64,000 bases of DNA from contig NZ_PKOJ01000002.1 of the NCBI RefSeq assembly GCF_002860325.1, forward strand, positions 1 through 64,000, in the 5' to 3' direction. This document shows positions 156-8,720 of the stretch, in pieces. A model generated the notes under the pieces. It was not told where the DNA came from and searched no databases. It worked only from the letters and a program-made list of their open reading frames with translations. How positions within the stretch are numbered: the stretch's first letter is position 1; each line of letters opens with the position of its first letter. This stretch comes from Neptunicoccus cionae (GTDB taxonomy: Bacteria; Pseudomonadota; Alphaproteobacteria; Rhodobacterales; Rhodobacteraceae). The translations under genes were made by a program, and so were the position numbers.

Positions 156-208
156 TGGTACCCGAGGCCGGACTCGAACCGGCAAACCTTGCGGCGGGGG
201 ATTTTGAA
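156..208 (-). repeat. Partial copy of tRNA-Leu 3' half (distal attachment site)
   Basis: These 53 bases are identical to 2226-2278, the 3' half of tRNA-Leu(CAA) from the anticodon loop to the CCA end, and lie in the same orientation. Identity stops at 208/2278, where the 5' half of the tRNA is missing here. Duplication of a tRNA 3' end is the usual scar of a tyrosine-recombinase element. The intact copy at 2226 would be the proximal att site and this one the distal site, bounding an islet of about 2.07 kb. No integrase gene lies between them. Confidence 0.8.
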
Positions 209-250
209 ACCAGTATAACTAATTTTATTTCAGTAACTTAAATGGAAAGA

Positions 251-291
251 TTCCCACTGACTTATGGTGAACGTAATGTGAAAGTGGGAAA
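251..291. repeat. Inverted and direct short repeats near the distal att site
   Basis: An 8-base inverted repeat (TTCCCACT at 251-258, AGTGGGAA at 283-290) lies 43 bases inside the left att copy. The 13-mer at 279-291 (TGAAAGTGGGAAA) recurs exactly at 2153-2165, near the right end and in the same orientation. Such end-proximal repeats could be arm-type recombinase binding sites; that is inference. Confidence 0.4.
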
Positions 292-652
292 ATAATCCTG
301 AGGCGCTTATGCCCGACTATTGACGCGTCTCGATGAAGGTCAAAATCGTTCCAACCAAAAGAGAGTTGCTCTTCTTTCATTAGGCAGCTTTGCGCAATAA
401 ACCGCCTTTCCAAAGTTTCGCGAACCGTCCAACTGAATTCTATGCATTGCGCAGCAGACACTTGCTTCGAGGCAGAATTTTCCCGCTGCAGCAATCGCCT
501 CGAATGTCCGGTCTTAAATTGGCGCCACAAACGAACCTTCTAAAAGATTTCCGAAATTTCACATTTTTGGCAACAAGCATGCAAAGAATAACGATGGAGT
601 CCTCTTTGGCTTTCGGGCACTATCTCGGGAAAAGGTCCGGAGATACAGAGCG

Positions 653-1363
653 ATGATGGAAGCAGTTGCACGACGAAAAGCACATTGGCTTTTCGGCTCT
701 GGGAGCGAGAAGAACTTTATCGGCAAGCGAAGACCACAAGAAGATATGGTGACATCTGCCGTGTTCGGTTCGATCGGACTGTTGTCCCCAAAAGATCGGT
801 GCAAGGCCATCGAAATACTCTTGGGACGCGATGCCTTTAATACTACTGGCCTCTCGAAAAATTGCGACATAGGGACAGAGCTCTGGCCGCGACTTACCAG
901 TCTAGAAGGACGGCGTCACGTTGAGCCCGACGTTTTGCTGAGGTCAGCGGATAAGACGACAATCGTCGAGGTCAAATGGCACGCCCCTCTTTCAAAAAGA
1001 CAACTCGAGCAGCAGGTTGAAGCAGTAGGCGCTGAAAATGTCAGTGCTGTTGTCTTGCTGGGTGAAGCGGGAGTAGGAGAGAATATTAGTGGCACGCCCT
1101 GCTTTCGACGCACTTGGCGAGACGTATCTGGTGATCTTCAGAATTGGCAGGACCAAAAAAGCAGTGCTCTAAGCCTTTGGGGCAAAACAATGCAGGCCTT
1201 TCTTCAAGAGACGGATATGGGACGCATTTTCAATGGCTTGCCGATACCCAGAAAAGCAAAAAAGGTTTCGTATAGCTTCAGAAAGCCAGGCCATCGGCCA
1301 TGGCTAGAGCCATGGCCGAACAAAGTCGAAACAGTTCAATACACATTTAAGCGAGGGGTATGA
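653..1363 (+). CDS. PD-(D/E)XK nuclease-like protein, islet gene 1
   Basis: A 236-residue protein with the layout of a PD-(D/E)XK phosphodiesterase fold: an acidic residue in an early helix (around E30-D31), then P92-D93, then E106-x-K108 in a strand reading TIVEVKW, followed by a Gln-rich helix (QLEQQ, about 118-122). These would be the metal ligands and catalytic lysine of a restriction-endonuclease-like core. I do not recognise the exact family. The start at 653 follows a weak GGAG-like site; an ATG one codon later is also possible. The stop overlaps the next gene by 4 bp (ATGA), implying translational coupling. The pair is the whole coding content of a tRNA-borne islet, which suggests an accessory, perhaps defence-related, role. 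Confidence 0.6.
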   Translation: MMEAVARRKAHWLFGSGSEKNFIGKRRPQEDMVTSAVFGSIGLLSPKDRCKAIEILLGRDAFNTTGLSKNCDIGTELWPRLTSLEGRRHVEPDVLLRSADKTTIVEVKWHAPLSKRQLEQQVEAVGAENVSAVVLLGEAGVGENISGTPCFRRTWRDVSGDLQNWQDQKSSALSLWGKTMQAFLQETDMGRIFNGLPIPRKAKKVSYSFRKPGHRPWLEPWPNKVETVQYTFKRGV

Positions 1364-1998
1364 AGGATATGGATACGGACAAGGCAGTTGAGAATGGTAA
1401 GATTCTTTTCCAATCGGCTGAAAATTTGATGCAAGCAGCTCTTGATCTCGACGCCCTTATGGAAAGCATCTGGGATCTCCTCGCTGAAGAAACATTCTTG
1501 GGCGGTGAGATGAAAGATTCTAGTCATGCAGACGATAATTCAGGCAATGATTGGATTACACCTATCTATTCAGCTAACGGTGAAGTCCGGGGCAAAGGAA
1601 AAGGGTCACCTCGGCTTGGAACAATAACCTATGTTGTTCGTTTGTGTGGGAAAGGGTCGCTACTACCCCCACTTCCAAATTGGCCATGGCTCGAACAAGC
1701 CAGTCTTTTCGTCGGCTGGCATAAGTTAAATGATTATTGGGGGCCGGAGGATTTCGAGCCGTCAGAAGCTGACAATCTTCACCATCGCGGACATGGACTC
1801 TGGGCTTATCGGGATGAAAAAGACAGGCAGGACTATGGCCATTTTTTTGCTCTTCCGCTCTTTTCGCTCAGGACCGAGAACGATCTAAAACGGTTTATAG
1901 TGACCCCACTCAAGACACTCTTTCAAGCTGACGATCTCGAGGCAGTCGTCAAAGAAGCCCTTCGCGAGGTTCCTGTGCTTTTGCCCTCATCAGGATGA
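1360..1998 (+). CDS. Unrecognised partner protein, islet gene 2
   Basis: A 212-residue acidic protein I cannot assign. The N-terminal 50 residues look helical (ENLMQAALDLDALMESIWDL), followed by a polar linker and a compact C-terminal half with aromatic-rich stretches (NWPWLEQASLFVGWHKLNDYWGPEDF) and a final helix. There are no membrane segments, signal peptide or zinc motif. It starts inside the stop codon of the nuclease-like gene (ATGA overlap), so the two are probably made in fixed ratio and may form a complex, immunity pair or effector/sensor pair. Base composition is AT-richer than the genes to the right, consistent with acquisition. Confidence 0.55.
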   Translation: MKDMDTDKAVENGKILFQSAENLMQAALDLDALMESIWDLLAEETFLGGEMKDSSHADDNSGNDWITPIYSANGEVRGKGKGSPRLGTITYVVRLCGKGSLLPPLPNWPWLEQASLFVGWHKLNDYWGPEDFEPSEADNLHHRGHGLWAYRDEKDRQDYGHFFALPLFSLRTENDLKRFIVTPLKTLFQADDLEAVVKEALREVPVLLPSSG

Positions 1999-2152
1999 CA
2001 GAAATTGTTCGAATGCAAACACTAGCCGAGTCGCACGATAGGTCACTTTGTCTGAACATCTGCCCCTTGTGGAGCCCCCTGAAAATGCCTTCAAACTACC
2101 CGTGGGATTAAATGAGCTTTGAACACACACTAACGATCAAAAGCAGGAACAC

Positions 2153-2165
2153 TGAAAGTGGGAAA
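2153..2165 (+). repeat. 13-bp direct repeat near the proximal att site
   Basis: An exact copy of the 13-mer at 279-291, lying 61 bases from the tRNA gene. Together with the left copy it flanks the two islet genes. It may be a recombinase arm site; nothing else in the 227-bp gap 1999-2225 stands out. Confidence 0.35.
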
Positions 2166-2225
2166 CTTTTTTTGGTGAGAAATCTGAAGAGCGCCCCGTA
2201 AGGGGAATTTCTCAATGATTTCAAG

Positions 2226-2310
2226 TGGTACCCGAGGCCGGACTCGAACCGGCAAACCTTGCGGCGGGGGATTTTGAATCCCCTGCGTCTACCAATTCCG
2301 CCACTCGGGC
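2226..2310 (-). tRNA. tRNA-Leu(CAA)
   Basis: Read on the minus strand this is an 85-nt class II tRNA. It has acceptor GCCCGAG paired with CTCGGGT (a terminal G-U wobble), a D-arm, an anticodon stem GGGGA/TCCCC with loop TTCAAAA (anticodon CAA, bases 2274-2276), a variable arm, a T-arm with GTTCGAGTC, and an encoded CCA end. The gene is intact; its 3' half is duplicated at 156-208, marking it as the integration target of the islet to its left. Confidence 0.95.
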
Positions 2311-2375: not shown

Positions 2376-3227
2376 TTATAGCGCAGAGGCGCCGAAGGTG
2401 TCGCATTGCCGGATGTCGGCGGTTTCAAAACCGCGTTGGAACCAGTTCTGGCGCTGTGCGGATGTGCCGTGCGTAAAACTGTGGGGGTTCGGGCGCTGGC
2501 CGGCGTTGCGTTGCAGTGTGTCGTCTCCGATCTGGCGGGCCGCATTCAGCGCCTCTCCCAGATCGCCCCGTTCCAGCGTGCCAAGCCGGTCCTGTGCATA
2601 GCGCGCCCATATGCCGGAAAAACAGTCCGCTTGCAGTTCGATCATCACGGACACGCGGTTGCTCTCCGCCTGCCCCATCCGCGAGCGTGCCTTGTTCGCT
2701 TCGGCCAGAATGCCCAGCTCGTTTTGCACGTGATGGGCGATTTCATGGGCGACAACATAGGCAGCGGCAAAATCCCCCGACGCGCCTAGCCTGCGGGACA
2801 ATGTGGTGAAGAAATCCGTGTCGAGATAGGCTTTCCGGTCTGTGGGGCAGTAAAACGGACCCGAAGCACCATTTGCACCGCCACAGGGGGATTGGGTCGC
2901 GCCTTTGAATAGAACCATCGTGGCCGGGCGATAAGTAGCATTCAGCTGCTGTTCGAAAATTTCGGCCCATACGGTTTCCGTATCCGCCAGCGTCACCGAG
3001 ACAAATTCTGCCGCCTGTTCGTCTTGCGGTGTCAGTTCCACGCTACGACCGTTGGTGATCTGACTGCCGCCGGGATTGAGGAATGGCGTCACATCCACCC
3101 CGAGAAAGTATCCGATGGCCAGCACAGCAAGCAGACCGAAGCCCCCGATGCCGCCCGCAGCCCGAACCCCGCCGGAGCGACGGCGGTCCTCTATGTTACG
3201 GCTTCCCTGCCGGCCTCTCCATTTCAT
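2376..3227 (-). CDS. ypfJ: YpfJ-family neutral zinc metallopeptidase
   Basis: A 283-residue putative metalloprotease. An N-terminal Gly/Arg-rich stretch is followed by one membrane segment (GGFGLLAVLAIGYFLGV) and a periplasmic domain carrying the zincin motif HEIAHHVQNELG. Downstream conserved blocks (ELQADCFSGIW and the C-terminal HSFTHG region) fit the YpfJ/zinc_peptidase family, whose usual length is about 285. The longest frame extends to 3413, but the extra 62 residues look untranslated; the ATG at 3227 begins MKWRGR, the usual family start. It ends 65 bp from the tRNA gene. Confidence 0.9.
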   Translation of the reverse strand: MKWRGRQGSRNIEDRRRSGGVRAAGGIGGFGLLAVLAIGYFLGVDVTPFLNPGGSQITNGRSVELTPQDEQAAEFVSVTLADTETVWAEIFEQQLNATYRPATMVLFKGATQSPCGGANGASGPFYCPTDRKAYLDTDFFTTLSRRLGASGDFAAAYVVAHEIAHHVQNELGILAEANKARSRMGQAESNRVSVMIELQADCFSGIWARYAQDRLGTLERGDLGEALNAARQIGDDTLQRNAGQRPNPHSFTHGTSAQRQNWFQRGFETADIRQCDTFGASAL

Positions 3228-3313
3228 CTCAGCACTCCCGAAAACGTGATTTTTATTGAAACTAGCGCAGCCGCGTCGGGGCGCAAGGCTTGACCCGTAC
3301 CGGACTACGGGGC

Positions 3314-3922
3314 ATGAGAAACAAAAAACGAGAGGCGCTTGCAGTGTTACGCAGATTTTACGAGTGGATTCTGTCTCTGGCCCAATCCCGCTGGGCGCTG
3401 GCGGCGCTGGCAATTATCGCCTTTGTGGAAAGCTCGGTTTTTCCGATCCCGCCCGATGTACTGCTGATCCCGCTGATCCTTGCAGCCCCGACCCGCGCCT
3501 TCATGATTGCGGCGGTCTGTACAGTGTCATCCGTTCTGGGGGGCGCCTTTGGCTATTACATCGGGGCAGAGTTGTTTGACGCCATCGGCCGCCCGATTCT
3601 TGATTTCTACCACAAGGCCGAAGCTTTCGAGACGTTCAAAACGCGCTTTAACGAACAGGGCCACTGGGCGGTTCTGTTCGCGGGCATCACGCCGTTCCCC
3701 TACAAGGTCATAACGATCACGTCGGGCGCAACAGACCTGCCCTTTTGGTCCTTCCTGTTCTGGTCCCTGATCGCGCGCGGTATACGATTCTTCATCGTGG
3801 CGACTCTTTTGTGGCACTTCGGCGCACCCATCCGTGATTTCATTGAACGCCGCCTTGCCTTGGTGTTCACTGTGTTTCTGATACTTCTGGTTCTCGGATT
3901 CTGGGCGGTGAAATACTTCTGA
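3314..3922 (+). CDS. YqaA/DedA-like membrane protein (VTT domain)
   Basis: A 202-residue inner-membrane protein with four or five hydrophobic segments and the SNARE-associated/VTT-type pattern: FVESSVFPIPPDVLLIPL near residues 37-54, and a second re-entrant element FAGITPFPYKVITITSGA. Related DedA proteins act in membrane homeostasis and lipid flipping. I chose the ATG at 3314 over a TTG eight codons upstream. The stop overlaps the dsbB start (TGATG), so the two are probably co-transcribed. It is divergent from the ypfJ-like gene. Confidence 0.8.
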   Translation: MRNKKREALAVLRRFYEWILSLAQSRWALAALAIIAFVESSVFPIPPDVLLIPLILAAPTRAFMIAAVCTVSSVLGGAFGYYIGAELFDAIGRPILDFYHKAEAFETFKTRFNEQGHWAVLFAGITPFPYKVITITSGATDLPFWSFLFWSLIARGIRFFIVATLLWHFGAPIRDFIERRLALVFTVFLILLVLGFWAVKYF

Positions 3923-4386
3923 TGCAACAGAGACTTATATTACTGGCAGCCCTTGGCTCCGCACTGATGCTGGCAGCGGCTTTCGGATTTCAGCACATCG
4001 GTGATCTTGCGCCGTGCAAACTTTGTATCAACCAGCGCTGGCCCCATGCGGTGGCGGTTCTGATCGGTCTGGTGGCGGCCCTGTTCCCGCACCGGATACT
4101 GGCCCTGTTCGGCGCGGCTGCGGCCTTCACCACATCTGCCATCGGATTTTATCACGCCGGAGTGGAGTGGAAATGGTGGGAAGGCCCGACGACCTGCACA
4201 TCCGGTCCGGTCGGCGATCTGGCGGTGAAGGATCTGCTGAACCAGATTCTCGAAGCACCGATGGTACGCTGTGACGAAATCCCGTGGGAGTTGTTCGGCC
4301 TGTCCATGGCAGGCTGGAACGGTGTTATCTCACTTGGCCTGACGCTGATCTGGCTGGCGGCGGCATTTCAGCCCAAAACCCGTTAA
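3922..4386 (+). CDS. dsbB: Disulfide bond formation protein DsbB family
   Basis: A 154-residue, four-helix membrane protein that would reoxidise periplasmic DsbA and pass electrons to quinone. The first redox pair is CKLC (residues 32-35), in the APCKLCINQRWPH block typical of DsbB. The second pair is the separated cysteines in TTCTSG and MVRCDE of the large periplasmic loop. It overlaps the upstream VTT-domain gene by one base. Confidence 0.9.
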   Translation: MQQRLILLAALGSALMLAAAFGFQHIGDLAPCKLCINQRWPHAVAVLIGLVAALFPHRILALFGAAAAFTTSAIGFYHAGVEWKWWEGPTTCTSGPVGDLAVKDLLNQILEAPMVRCDEIPWELFGLSMAGWNGVISLGLTLIWLAAAFQPKTR

Positions 4387-4407
4387 CACTCCAAGGAACC
4401 CTGCGGC

Positions 4408-4992
4408 TCAGGCTTCCAGTTCGGCATCCCAGTAGAGAAAATCCATCCAGCTTTCGTGCAGGTGGTTCGGAGGAAACTTGCGCCCAGCGTTCAAAAGCTG
4501 GTTGGCCGAAGGCTGCATCGGGGTGCGGCGCAGTTTCATGTTTGCCTGCCGCAAGGACCGCGCGCCCTTGCGCAGGTTGCACGGCCCGCAGGATGCCACC
4601 ACATTCTGCCATGTCGTCTTGCCGCCACGGGATCGGGGCACGACGTGATCAAAGGTCATATCCCCGCGCGAACCACAGTACTGGCAGGTAAATTCATCCC
4701 GCAAGAACAGGTTAAAGCGGGTAAAAGCGGTGGTCTGGGCCGGTTTGACATAATCCTTCAGGACAATCACCGAAGGAATCCGGATCTCGACCGAGGGCGA
4801 ATGCACCGTGCGCTCGTACTCGGCAACGATTGTAACACGGTCAAGGTAGGCCGCTTTCACAGCCTCCTGCCAGCGCCAGACGGAAAGGGGAAAATAGCTT
4901 AGTGGTCTGAAATCCGCATTCAGGACAAGCGCGGGGTTCTCCCGCAGGCCAGCCGGATTTCGTATGAACTCTTGTGTAAACTCGGAAGTCAT
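4408..4992 (-). CDS. HNH endonuclease
   Basis: A 194-residue HNH nuclease. A conserved N-terminal part (ALVLNADFRPLSYFPLSVWRWQEAV) is followed by the zinc-stabilised HNH core: CQYCG, then TFDHVVPRSRGGKTTWQNVV, then CGPCNLRKG. This chromosomal family is widespread in alphaproteobacteria and is not by itself a mobile-element marker. I prefer the ATG at 4992 (MTSEFTQEF); an in-frame ATG at 5031 would add 13 residues. It is convergent with dsbB. Confidence 0.88.
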   Translation of the reverse strand: MTSEFTQEFIRNPAGLRENPALVLNADFRPLSYFPLSVWRWQEAVKAAYLDRVTIVAEYERTVHSPSVEIRIPSVIVLKDYVKPAQTTAFTRFNLFLRDEFTCQYCGSRGDMTFDHVVPRSRGGKTTWQNVVASCGPCNLRKGARSLRQANMKLRRTPMQPSANQLLNAGRKFPPNHLHESWMDFLYWDAELEA

Positions 4993-5133
4993 TAGCGTCA
5001 CGCATCCCTGCTCTGTTGCGTTGATTGGCATCAGAGCGGGGCATCCCGCCCGTCACCGTAAGGAAAACTATATATAGATGCTTTCCTAGAACAACCCTCT
5101 ATATTCAGCAGGTAACAGGCTTATGACCGATCA

Positions 5134-5742
5134 CTAAGTTCCGGATTTATCTTCTTCGGTGCTGTAACGGGCGAACAGAGGCCCCTGAACGATAAAGAAA
5201 ACGAACACAAGCGCGGTCAGCCCGAAGGTTTTGAAATTCACCCATGCGTCGGTAGACATGAACCGCCAGACCAGTTCGTTCGCCAGCGCAAGGGACAGAA
5301 AAAACGCGCAGACCCGTTTGGTCAGGATCATCCAGCCCTCGTGTGTCATGGGCACCATTTCATCCATCACAGTGCGCAGATAGGATTTGCCCTGCAACAG
5401 GCCGATCCCGAGCAGGCCACCAAACAGCAGGTAGATAATCGTCGGTTTCATCTTGAAGAAGCGGTCGTCATTGAACCAGATCGACATGCCGCCAAAAACA
5501 ACCACCAGAACCGCCGTCATCAACTGCATCCGCGACAGTTTGCCCGTCAGCCACCACAACAATCCGGTCGATACCAGAAGAACGGGAATAAAGGCCGCCG
5601 TTGCGATGATAAAGCCCTCATAGCTTTGACCGAAGATTTCAAACTCGCGGTCCTTGATCCGTGTATAGGCCACAAAGAACAGGACAACCGGTCCAAGCTC
5701 CAGCCCGAGTTTCACCATCGGGTTGACTGATTTCTCGCTCAT
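5134..5742 (-). CDS. yciB: YciB family inner-membrane protein (septation protein A)
   Basis: A 202-residue protein with five to six membrane spans. It carries family blocks LGLELGPVVLFF at the N-terminus, KPTIIYLLFGGLLG centrally, and a C-terminal NELVWRFMSTDAWVNFKTFG. YciB is an intracellular septation/envelope integrity protein. A GAGG ribosome site precedes the ATG. It lies 34 bp downstream of a DMT transporter gene on the same strand, so they may share a transcript. Confidence 0.9.
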   Translation of the reverse strand: MSEKSVNPMVKLGLELGPVVLFFVAYTRIKDREFEIFGQSYEGFIIATAAFIPVLLVSTGLLWWLTGKLSRMQLMTAVLVVVFGGMSIWFNDDRFFKMKPTIIYLLFGGLLGIGLLQGKSYLRTVMDEMVPMTHEGWMILTKRVCAFFLSLALANELVWRFMSTDAWVNFKTFGLTALVFVFFIVQGPLFARYSTEEDKSGT

Positions 5743-5776
5743 GAAAATTTGCCTCTAAACTGTCGTTTCTTGTGGT

Positions 5777-6691
5777 TTAGCCGCTAAACTCTACCAAAAC
5801 TGCACCGGCTGCAATGGCTACCATCAGGGTTGCGCGCAAAAGACCGACTTTCTCGTGCAGGAACAGCCAGCCGATCAAAGCAGCGAACACCACAGAGGTT
5901 TCCCGCAGCACAGCGACCTCGCCCACTTTATCCAGCCGCGTTGCAAACATGATAGAGCCAAAGCTTGCGAAGGCCACTAATCCACCGATGACACCCCGCA
6001 CCGCCATTGACCGCACCGAGGGTTGTACAGCCATTTTCCGGTATCGGTAGACTGCGATCCAAGGGAACACCAAACCGTCCAGAAAGAACAGCCAGAAGAT
6101 AAAGGTAAACGGATTGAGCGTGGCACGCACCCCGTAAGCATCCCAAGTGGTATAGGCCGCCACGCCAAAGCCTGTCAGCACCGCATAAAACAGCCCCATC
6201 CCCATCGTGCGCCGGTCAATACCGCCCTGCATCAGGTTGATCCCCGCCAGCAGAAAGATGGCAGAGGACAGCAGGATCACCCCGGACCATTGCACCAGAT
6301 TATAGCTTTCGTGAAAGCGGTCCTGAAACAGAACGCCCACAAACAACATCGTCACCAGTGGCCCCATGCCCCGCACGACCGGATAGACCACAGTGTAGCT
6401 GCCGCGCGCGTAAGCCATGGCCTGAAAGAATTTATACACTAGATGGATACCCATCGCCCCGAACAGCAAGGGCCACACATGTGGTTCGGGCCAAGGCACC
6501 AGAAACAGGATAACCGGCAATGCCATTACACTGTAACTTACATCAATCGCGCCCCGCGCCAGCCAGGGATCAAGTTTGCCTTTTTGCAGTGCACCAAACA
6601 CAGCATGAAGAACTGCAGCCAGTACCGCCAGTGCCAGCGCAAGATTGCGCCCGAACTGGGTTCCGTCTACTTCTAGTAACCACTCGGTCAT
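5777..6691 (-). CDS. EamA/DMT-superfamily transporter
   Basis: A 304-residue, roughly ten-span integral membrane protein made of two EamA-like halves. Typical DMT features are the block ARGSYTVVYPVVRGMGPLVTMLFVGVLF ending the first half, and VAVLRETSVVFAALIGWLFLHEKVG in the second. The substrate cannot be told from sequence. It is probably co-transcribed with yciB downstream and is divergent from the MgtC-like gene at 6719. Confidence 0.85.
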   Translation of the reverse strand: MTEWLLEVDGTQFGRNLALALAVLAAVLHAVFGALQKGKLDPWLARGAIDVSYSVMALPVILFLVPWPEPHVWPLLFGAMGIHLVYKFFQAMAYARGSYTVVYPVVRGMGPLVTMLFVGVLFQDRFHESYNLVQWSGVILLSSAIFLLAGINLMQGGIDRRTMGMGLFYAVLTGFGVAAYTTWDAYGVRATLNPFTFIFWLFFLDGLVFPWIAVYRYRKMAVQPSVRSMAVRGVIGGLVAFASFGSIMFATRLDKVGEVAVLRETSVVFAALIGWLFLHEKVGLLRATLMVAIAAGAVLVEFSG

Positions 6692-6718
6692 ATCCGGCCT
6701 GCAATTTCAGGATCTAAC

Positions 6719-7246
6719 ATGTATTCAGCCCTCGTCGACGAGTTCCAGATCAACGGATCGGTTGTGCCACTGGGTATCGTCATATTCCGTATGTTCGCAG
6801 CTACTCTTATGGGTGGTATTATCGGTTGGGAACGGGAACACAACGCCCGCGCCGCCGGTTTACGCACCCATATGATGATTTCCGTTGCGTCCTGCCTGTT
6901 TGCAATCGTCGCGCTCGACCTGATTGCGCTGGATACAGAGGATCAGGAACGGATCAAGGCGGACCCGATCAAACTGATCAGCGCGATTACATCCGGTGTA
7001 GCCTTTCTCGCTGCCGGTTCGATCATCATTTCAGGAGGTAAAGTTCACGGTCTAACCACAGGGGCCAGCATGTGGCTTGTAGGGGCAGTCGGGCTAAGCT
7101 GTGGCACCGGACGTATCCCGCTTGCCCTTGTAGCGACGGTGATCGCCCTGATCATCCTGTGGATTGTGAACCGCGTGGCAGAGCGACCCAAGAAGAAAAT
7201 CGAAGACGCAAGGGACGATGATGAGGACGAAGCGGAACCGGCCTAG
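6719..7246 (+). CDS. MgtC/SapB family membrane protein
   Basis: A 175-residue protein whose N-terminal hydrophobic domain shows the MgtC signature: LMGGIIGWEREHNARAAGLRTHMMISVASCLF, then ITSGVAFLAAGSII and LTTGASMWLVGAVGLSCG. It ends in a short charged tail (KKKIEDARDDDEDEAEPA). MgtC relatives act in Mg2+ homeostasis and acid or intracellular stress; this short form lacks the C-terminal ACT-like domain. It converges on ftsY, with only 22 bp between stop codons. Confidence 0.88.
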   Translation: MYSALVDEFQINGSVVPLGIVIFRMFAATLMGGIIGWEREHNARAAGLRTHMMISVASCLFAIVALDLIALDTEDQERIKADPIKLISAITSGVAFLAAGSIIISGGKVHGLTTGASMWLVGAVGLSCGTGRIPLALVATVIALIILWIVNRVAERPKKKIEDARDDDEDEAEPA

Positions 7247-7268
7247 CGCCCGCCAAGCGGCAGGCGCC

Positions 7269-8720
7269 CTACTCCAGACCTGTTAGCGCGCGGGCAAATT
7301 CCTCGGGGTCAAAGGGCGCCAGATCGTCGATCTGCTCCCCCAGCCCAATTGCATGGATCGGCAGCCCGAACCGGTCCGCCAGCGCCACCAGTACGCCGCC
7401 CTTGGCGGTGCCGTCCAGCTTGGTCATGACCAGCCCCGAAACATCTGCGATCTTCTGGAAAATTTCCACCTGTGACAGCGCGTTCTGCCCTGTGGTCGCA
7501 TCCAGCACCAATAACGTGTTGTGGGGCGCCTCTGGGTCTTTCTTGCGGATCACCCGAACGATTTTGGCCAGTTCTTCCATCAGATCCTGACGGTTCTGCA
7601 ACCGCCCCGCCGTGTCGATCATCAACAGGTCTGCCCCGTCCTGTTCCGCCTTGGTCATGGCGTCAAACGCCAGCGACGCCGGATCGGACCCTTCGGGCGC
7701 AGTCAGAACCGGAACGCCGGCCCGTTCTCCCCAGACCTGTAACTGTTCCACGGCGGCAGCGCGGAATGTGTCACCAGCGGCAATCACCACCGTCTTGCCA
7801 GCCGCTTTGAACTGGCTGGCCAGTTTGCCGATTGTCGTCGTCTTGCCAGAGCCGTTGACCCCGACCACCAGAACCACCTGCGGGCGTTTGGTGTAAAGGG
7901 GCATCGGGCGGGCCACAGGTTCCATGATCCGCGCCACTTCGCTGGCCAGCAGCGCTTTCAGCTCTGCGGTGGACAGCTTCTTGCCCATGCGCCCTTCGGC
8001 CAGATTGGCGGAGACCCGCATAGCGGTTTCAACGCCCATATCGGCTGTAATCAACAAATCCTCGATGCTTTCCAGCATGGCATCGTCAAGCGCACGGCGC
8101 ACGACTGTCTTTTCCGCGGTCCGTCCGCCGAACAAACGCCCCAGAAGGCCTGGCTTTGCGGCATCAGCCTCTTGCGCCGCTTTGGCTGCCTCTGCCTGTG
8201 CAGCTGCCTGACGGGCTGTTTCGGCTTCGGCTGCGGCCTGCTCTGCGCGGCGGCGCTCTTCGGCCTCTGCTTCCCTCTCAAGGCGGGCCTGTTCTTCGGC
8301 CTCAATCCGCGCCAGTCGCGCAGCCTCGGTTGCTTCGGCAGCCTTGCGGGCGGTGTCTTCTGCCTCCTGCTCTGCCTTGACGCGGCTCTCGGCATCAAGT
8401 CGTGCATTTTCCCGAGCTTCTGCTTCCAGCTGTTCCGCATGACGCCGTGCAGCTTCTTCCCGCTCGGCTCGCGCCGCTGCTGCAGCTGCCTCTGCTTCAC
8501 GCGCTGCTTCTTCCTGTTCAGCCAGTTCCCGCGCAGCAGCCGCCTGCGCCTCTTGCGCTTCCCGTGCCGCAGCGGCTTCGGCTTCGGCCTGACGGGCCAG
8601 TTCTGCCTCTCCGGTCTCTGTATCGGTGGTCCCGCCATCCTCTACGATCGCGTCAAGCCCCTCTTCAATCTTGGAAGAAGATTTGAACATGCGGTCTTTG
8701 AGTTTCTTGAAAAAGGACAT
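7269..8720 (-). CDS. ftsY: Signal recognition particle receptor FtsY
   Basis: A 483-residue SRP-receptor GTPase for co-translational membrane targeting. The first roughly 190 residues are an Ala/Glu/Arg-rich A domain, followed by the N domain and the G domain with GVNGSGKTTTIGKLA (P-loop), DTFRAAAVEQL, DTAGR, and TKLDGTAKGG. The C-terminal block GEQIDDLAPFDPEEFA is typical of FtsY. AAAGGA precedes the ATG. The A domain is low-complexity and probably helical. Confidence 0.97.
   Translation of the reverse strand: MSFFKKLKDRMFKSSSKIEEGLDAIVEDGGTTDTETGEAELARQAEAEAAAAREAQEAQAAAARELAEQEEAAREAEAAAAAARAEREEAARRHAEQLEAEARENARLDAESRVKAEQEAEDTARKAAEATEAARLARIEAEEQARLEREAEAEERRRAEQAAAEAETARQAAAQAEAAKAAQEADAAKPGLLGRLFGGRTAEKTVVRRALDDAMLESIEDLLITADMGVETAMRVSANLAEGRMGKKLSTAELKALLASEVARIMEPVARPMPLYTKRPQVVLVVGVNGSGKTTTIGKLASQFKAAGKTVVIAAGDTFRAAAVEQLQVWGERAGVPVLTAPEGSDPASLAFDAMTKAEQDGADLLMIDTAGRLQNRQDLMEELAKIVRVIRKKDPEAPHNTLLVLDATTGQNALSQVEIFQKIADVSGLVMTKLDGTAKGGVLVALADRFGLPIHAIGLGEQIDDLAPFDPEEFARALTGLE

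Follow-up and report, generated by a model that had tools for sequence, protein, structure and literature searches.

On balance, the DNA between a tRNA-Leu(CAA) gene and a partial copy of that gene at the left end of the window (the whole stretch of 64,000 nt that was analyzed, G000:C10:1-64000) is probably the trimmed remainder of an integrative element, in which a nuclease gene and a partner gene have stayed intact and most likely form an anti-phage effector module. The features are as follows.

1-61, no strand assigned: end of a multi-copy element (by eye, an insertion-sequence end) at the contig break, with matches at other contig ends
156-208, minus strand: distal copy, the 3' part of tRNA-Leu(CAA) that runs from around the anticodon through CCA, identical to 2226-2278
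583-652, plus strand: probably what is left of the terminal (3') part of an AAA+ ATPase gene, with indels that break the frame, from an end-anchored alignment to the AAA gene of a Thioclava locus (L009)
653-1363, plus strand: P0001, predicted PD-(D/E)XK-type nuclease of the PDC-M15A family, from PADLOC model PDLC04456, site residues, structure model and Foldseek
1360-1998, plus strand: P0002, partner protein without known family, from relatives beside P0001 relatives and a structure model
2199-2225, no strand assigned: bases beside the whole tRNA, common to the related genome G298
2226-2310, minus strand: complete tRNA-Leu(CAA) gene, the likely integration target, from ARAGORN

The tRNA-Leu(CAA) gene is the single tRNA that ARAGORN found in the window. 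The initial annotation had described an exact 53-bp repeat of its 3' part bracketing about 2.07 kb and had taken the enclosed DNA for a cargo-only islet without an integrase. Indeed, 156-208 and 2226-2278 form a direct repeat that is identical at 53/53 bases, does not extend leftward, has a start-to-start spacing of 2070 and is far above chance expectation. The G+C content of 212-2225 is 47.7%, compared with 56.2% for 2311-64000, and none of the 299 overlapping windows of equal size in the latter stretch was as low; a direct repeat of a tRNA 3' end thus brackets DNA of differing composition, as in tRNA-borne islands. Two ORFs of the islet are intact, P0001 (236 aa) and P0002 (212 aa), and they overlap by ATGA. 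The lengths of the remaining ORFs of at least 60 aa that touch the islet range from 63 to 145 aa, and a Pfam scan of three of them (101, 103, and 145 aa) matched no family. No integrase was found in the islet by ORF and family scans: apart from P0001 and P0002, neither of which matches integrase families, there is no ORF of integrase size between the contig end at base 1, which bounds this search at the left, and the tRNA. Both descriptions therefore held. No packaging gene was recognized within the 2 kb, promoter-like sites occurred at chance level, and literature searches on tRNA-Leu islands and phage defense candidates gave nothing bearing on the P0001-P0002 pair.

The left edge of the window is a contig end inside multi-copy sequence. 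Positions 1-61 have exact matches of 41 to 61 bases at or near the termini of contigs C9, C6 (at both), C7, and C1; the opposite end of C10 has such a match, too, and that of C9 a further one of 25 bases. The repeat copy at 156 lies only 155 bases from this assembly break, which cuts off the rest of the site. Contig C9 (L053, 8289 bases) carries type I restriction-like genes (by eye), is bounded by the same multi-copy sequence and may belong near the islet.

We compared the site with that of related genomes. The closest relative is G298, with 94% identity over 1195 bases of flank, and G310 has 90%. Past the tRNA, both share a flank that includes LLM-family and OsmC genes (named by eye); in G298, these are preceded by about 2.4 kb with a hydrolase-like and an aminotransferase-like gene. 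The flank with the LLM gene is located close to the end of contig C15 in the window genome. In G310, a contig opens with the same 53 bases, followed by a gene for 457 aa (L047 126-1499, G310:C10; weak VRR-NUC match, E = 0.085) and then by LLM, in a position where a true fragment repeat and overlapping contig ends are indistinguishable. This gene, following the same fragment, suggests that tRNA-Leu(CAA) is a hotspot for small nuclease cargo. The 53-base sequence (up to 3 mismatches) is present in 15 of 33 genomes of the genus and occurs twice in three of them (G000, G310, and G313), the two copies of G313 matching across the whole tRNA. Both window copies are of the G298/G310 variant, not of that in the other 12 genomes, which points to recent exchange inside this lineage. 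Moreover, 2199-2225 is identical at 21/27 bases to the same place in G298, and the tRNA-proximal end is therefore not unique to the islet. In a comparison of relatives, as proposed in the initial annotation, P0001 was found in 0 of the 32 congeners searched, and no clean empty site was seen beside the common LLM gene, where G298 and G310 bear other genes.

P0001 matched five PDC-M15A models of PADLOC with E values of 2e-17 to 1e-6, the top match being PDLC04456 (E = 2.1e-17; best stretch, residues 1 to 128). The earlier statement that the pair matches no named system thus has to be withdrawn for the nuclease. In an alignment of six sequences, the window's P0001 among them, E30, D93, and E106-x-K108 are invariant (6/6). 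An AlphaFold model computed from 5 sequences had a mean pLDDT of 61, with blocks of residues 31 to 140 at 66 to 86 and values below 50 in residues 1 to 25 and 188 to 236; E30 lies in a block with a mean of 48. The core of the model runs helix-strands-helix-strand, the order expected for PD-(D/E)XK. Foldseek gave five matches with an E value of at most 0.001, namely, three chains of XPB-Bax1 complexes, one R2 retrotransposon protein and AF1548, and the next match was an McrBC chain (E = 0.0096), all of which we take to hold PD-(D/E)XK nuclease domains; TM-scores were low (query normalized, 0.23 to 0.33 for the five best) and the rmsd was large. Judged by its invariant residues, its model, and the Foldseek matches, P0001 is a PD-(D/E)XK-type nuclease with a predicted cutting activity. 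No significant family was found for it in Pfam, NCBIfam, or PHROGs, and a sequence search of solved structures gave only weak matches to TolR (E = 0.05 to 0.3), which were taken as chance.

P0002 gave only insignificant matches in Pfam and PADLOC (best E = 0.023) and none in NCBIfam and PHROGs. Its model (4 sequences; mean pLDDT, 71) has a long N-terminal helix, beta strands, and C-terminal helices. The fold search yielded no significant match, the best PDB entry being a secretion-chaperone complex (E = 0.32), and a sequence search of solved structures found nothing. We also tested for homology of P0002 to PDC-M15B, but the PDC-M15B models were matched neither by P0002 nor by its two nearest relatives (from Thioclava and G262), and a profile comparison using hhalign gave a probability of 0.1% (E = 0.52), so that homology was not demonstrated. 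By these comparisons, P0002 would be a divergent or a different partner relative to PDC-M15B, and the profile searches suggested at the outset for both proteins succeeded for P0001 with PDC-M15A and failed for P0002 with PDC-M15B. Relatives of P0002 do adjoin relatives of P0001 in Thioclava (L009), G262 (L015), and G047 (L014), the last of which lies close to the end of a contig and is reduced to 152 aa. Alignment indicated more distant, likely relatives in L061, L067, L069, and L070 (20 to 25% identity), of which the L061 protein (158 aa) seems shortened. The second gene is a clear PDC-M15B in two genomes (L062 and L068; E = 5e-25 and 7e-27), that of L072 resembles that of L068 (tblastn; E = 2e-6), those of L076 and L077 are alike by eye only, and the 309-aa product of the second gene on a Moellerella plasmid (L060) had no match. 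Compared with their Thioclava relatives, the P0001-type gene has a dN of 0.26 and a dS of 2.73 and the P0002 gene a pN of 0.37 and a pS of 0.82, silent sites being near saturation. Amino acid-changing differences are thus fewer than silent ones in both genes, which we counted for the effector-pair reading.

In all 15 loci examined, the P0001-type gene (A) is directly followed by a second gene (B) on the same strand, with gaps of -14 to +70 bases; L070 and L071 hold the same pair, which gives 14 distinct pairs, and most of the loci were collected by A-gene searches, so that the count is conditional on A. Together with the site residues and the fold match, this supported the coupled nuclease-like pair that had been read from the sequence. 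The A-gene family is rare, which limits inference. P0001 was found in 3/295 genomes of the family sample and in 1/33 genomes of the genus, the window's own genome being included in both counts; a housekeeping pair was rejected on this distribution (0/32 congeners searched). PDLC04456 was matched in 2/385 genomes of the class, an alignment of P0001 relatives (A3) in 3/398 of the phylum and an alignment of P0002 relatives (A2) in 3/390 of the order (G000, G262, and G766, the Thioclava of L009), again with the own genome included; these samples overlap. In each of the three A2-positive genomes, a nuclease gene adjoins. One of 14 control genomes, that of the archaeon Methanosarcina acetivorans, also had a match to PDLC04456.

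The settings of the A-gene pairs comprise a tRNA islet, conjugative plasmids, phage-like contigs, and operons with AAA+ and WYL genes. Six plasmid records matched P0001 and none matched P0002; the loci of two of the six were examined. The IMG/VR viral contigs contributed three loci and two more, and a scan of GTDB contigs contributed one, from Thioclava. On phage-like contigs, the genes for a head protease and a major head protein flank the pair and one small ORF in L076, L069 has the operon between portal and terminase genes, and L077 carries terminase and transposition-protein genes. No match was found in phage records for P0001 or the G1010 nuclease, in plasmids for the G1140 nuclease, or in viral contigs for the P0002 relatives (A2) or the M15B alignment. 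The pair seems to be exchangeable cargo, and the plasmid, phage-like, and AAA-WYL settings are contexts usual for defense cargo.

One AAA+ family and a WYL gene were found by tblastn in 4 of the 15 loci and in none of the remaining 11 stretches; three of these (L062, L067, and L068) are just 3.3 to 3.6 kb long, and the window was searched over its first 12 kb. The order is AAA, A, B, WYL in L009, where the contig ends within the open AAA frame and the gene is visible in part, and AAA, WYL, A, B in L069, L070, and L071. In L069, the operon (2928-7355) is flanked by the phage genes mentioned above. Downstream in L009, an integrase-like ORF and a DUF6538 ORF (4363-6661) separate the Thioclava pair from a tRNA-Gln gene; the former matches Phage_integrase just below the cutoff (E = 2.9e-5), and this pair therefore also seems to be in a tRNA-borne island. 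By blastp, the AAA gene of pAMI7 was unrelated to the other AAA genes. Plasmids of Fuscovulum and Leisingera (L090 and L091) carry the same AAA family and WYL, followed by ADP-ribosylglycohydrolase and PD-(D/E)XK genes, and the P0001-P0002 pair was not found by tblastn in five AAA-WYL plasmid stretches. As for an AAA+ ATPase acting in trans, three generic AAA matches were observed in the window genome (best E = 9e-11, over 140 residues).

In an end-anchored comparison only, the DNA directly upstream of P0001 resembled the end of such an ATPase gene. An end-anchored alignment of 583-652 to the end of the L009 AAA gene scored 20, whereas the best of 300 shuffles scored 6; when the last 20 bases were left out, the scores were 13 and 6. 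In L014 and L015, the sequence that precedes the pair scored 0 in the same test. Unanchored local alignment scored 19, which 241/500 shuffles equaled, and tblastn gave nothing significant for the relic and found no WYL remnant after P0002. We regard 583-652 as a probable ATPase gene relic, on good, not final, evidence from one anchored test against one relative. The islet is therefore probably what trimming has left of an operon, with the effector pair preserved, in line with the option of a decayed island that had been raised at the start.

We propose the following sequence of events. An integrative element would once have sat in the 3' end of tRNA-Leu(CAA), and the islet would be what remains of it. 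The element may earlier have borne a longer operon of AAA+ ATPase, nuclease, and partner genes, possibly including a WYL regulator, like the Thioclava operon; integrase and ATPase would then have been lost and the nuclease-partner pair kept intact. P0001 would cut DNA, that of the invader or, as a last resort, that of the host, and P0002, encoded on the same message and translationally coupled, would hold, fold, or direct P0001 until infection, acting as its controller or loader in an antiviral role. A bolder version, to which we give a distinctly lower probability, is that P0002 founds a chaperone-like family that loads or restrains a PD-(D/E)XK nuclease and that the A-B cartridge is exchangeable among AAA-WYL operons, phage head-gene clusters, plasmids, and tRNA islets, the ATPase being dispensable.

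The same coupling of two genes in every locus examined, several of them on conjugative plasmids and phage-like contigs, would also be expected of a toxin-antitoxin-like addiction module that stabilizes mobile DNA, with P0001 as the nuclease toxin, P0002 as its neutralizer, and defense as a secondary effect. However, the enzyme gene comes first, both proteins here exceed 200 aa, and AAA and WYL genes stand beside the pair in four loci; such neighbors suit defense operons more than addiction pairs, and we consider an addiction module rather unlikely. Of similarly low probability is a living satellite-like element, not a decayed island, whose mobilization in trans would depend on an integrase from elsewhere in the cell. 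The repeat is still perfect although its distal copy has no tRNA function, and the contig end of G310 bears the same 53 bases followed by other cargo, as a satellite would allow. On the other hand, the 2 kb hold no recognized integrase or packaging gene, the probable ATPase relic points to deletion, and a megablast search of PLSDB plasmids with the islet DNA found nothing similar. Least probable of the three is that the pair acts in DNA repair or recombination, its nuclease being Bax1-like or resolvase-like. Bax1 complexes are among the best fold matches of P0001, and its relative in G262 has a weak match to an Hjc profile (E = 0.078), but the finding of P0001 in just 1/33 genomes of the genus and 3/295 of the family sample, with relatives in mobile contexts, speaks against it. 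The trimmed remainder with an intact effector pair thus remains the reading that we prefer. The locus is a minimal natural version of a PDC-M15-like system, with two genes in 2 kb, and is directly testable; we found no published test of this candidate family in the open-access literature. Comparison with the AAA-WYL versions bears on whether the pair can dispense with the ATPase, and the copies on phage-like contigs suggest a role between competing phages.

How does the islet compare with known systems? The helix and strand order in the model of P0002 resembles what we take to be that of the T3SS-chaperone/YbjN (TY-Chap) fold, and Foldseek gave weak matches to SycE and ExsC, but no match was significant and the long N-terminal helix sets P0002 apart, so that the model gives a hint of likeness to secretion chaperones. 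With tRNA-borne genomic islands, the islet shares the repeat and the differing composition, whereas it has no integrase and is only 2 kb long. It is linked to the AAA-WYL operons by the pairs that adjoin the same AAA+ family and WYL and by the probable relic, but it has no ATPase, WYL, or ADP-ribosylglycohydrolase gene. The AAA-WYL operons on the Fuscovulum and Leisingera plasmids have other effectors, including ADP-ribosylglycohydrolase, PD-(D/E)XK, and UvrD genes, and in our reading their makeup recalls the ARG-centric systems predicted in section 3.8 of PMC9503650, to which they may belong; that section does not name the AAA family of the pair loci, and the paper also describes the TY-Chap fold. 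PADLOC's PDCs, mostly those of a single gene, are described in PMC12988326 as unvalidated putative candidates from guilt-by-embedding, and none of the open-access papers searched names PDC-M15, whose composition of A plus B we take from the PADLOC model names. P0002 does not match PDC-M15B, and profile comparison gives no connection; P0001 does match PDC-M15A, the two-gene order is that of L062 and L068 with PDC-M15B second, and the genes of the islet are adjacent and overlapping on one strand. By sequence comparison, the islet pair is a putative divergent variant of the cataloged candidate defense system PDC-M15.
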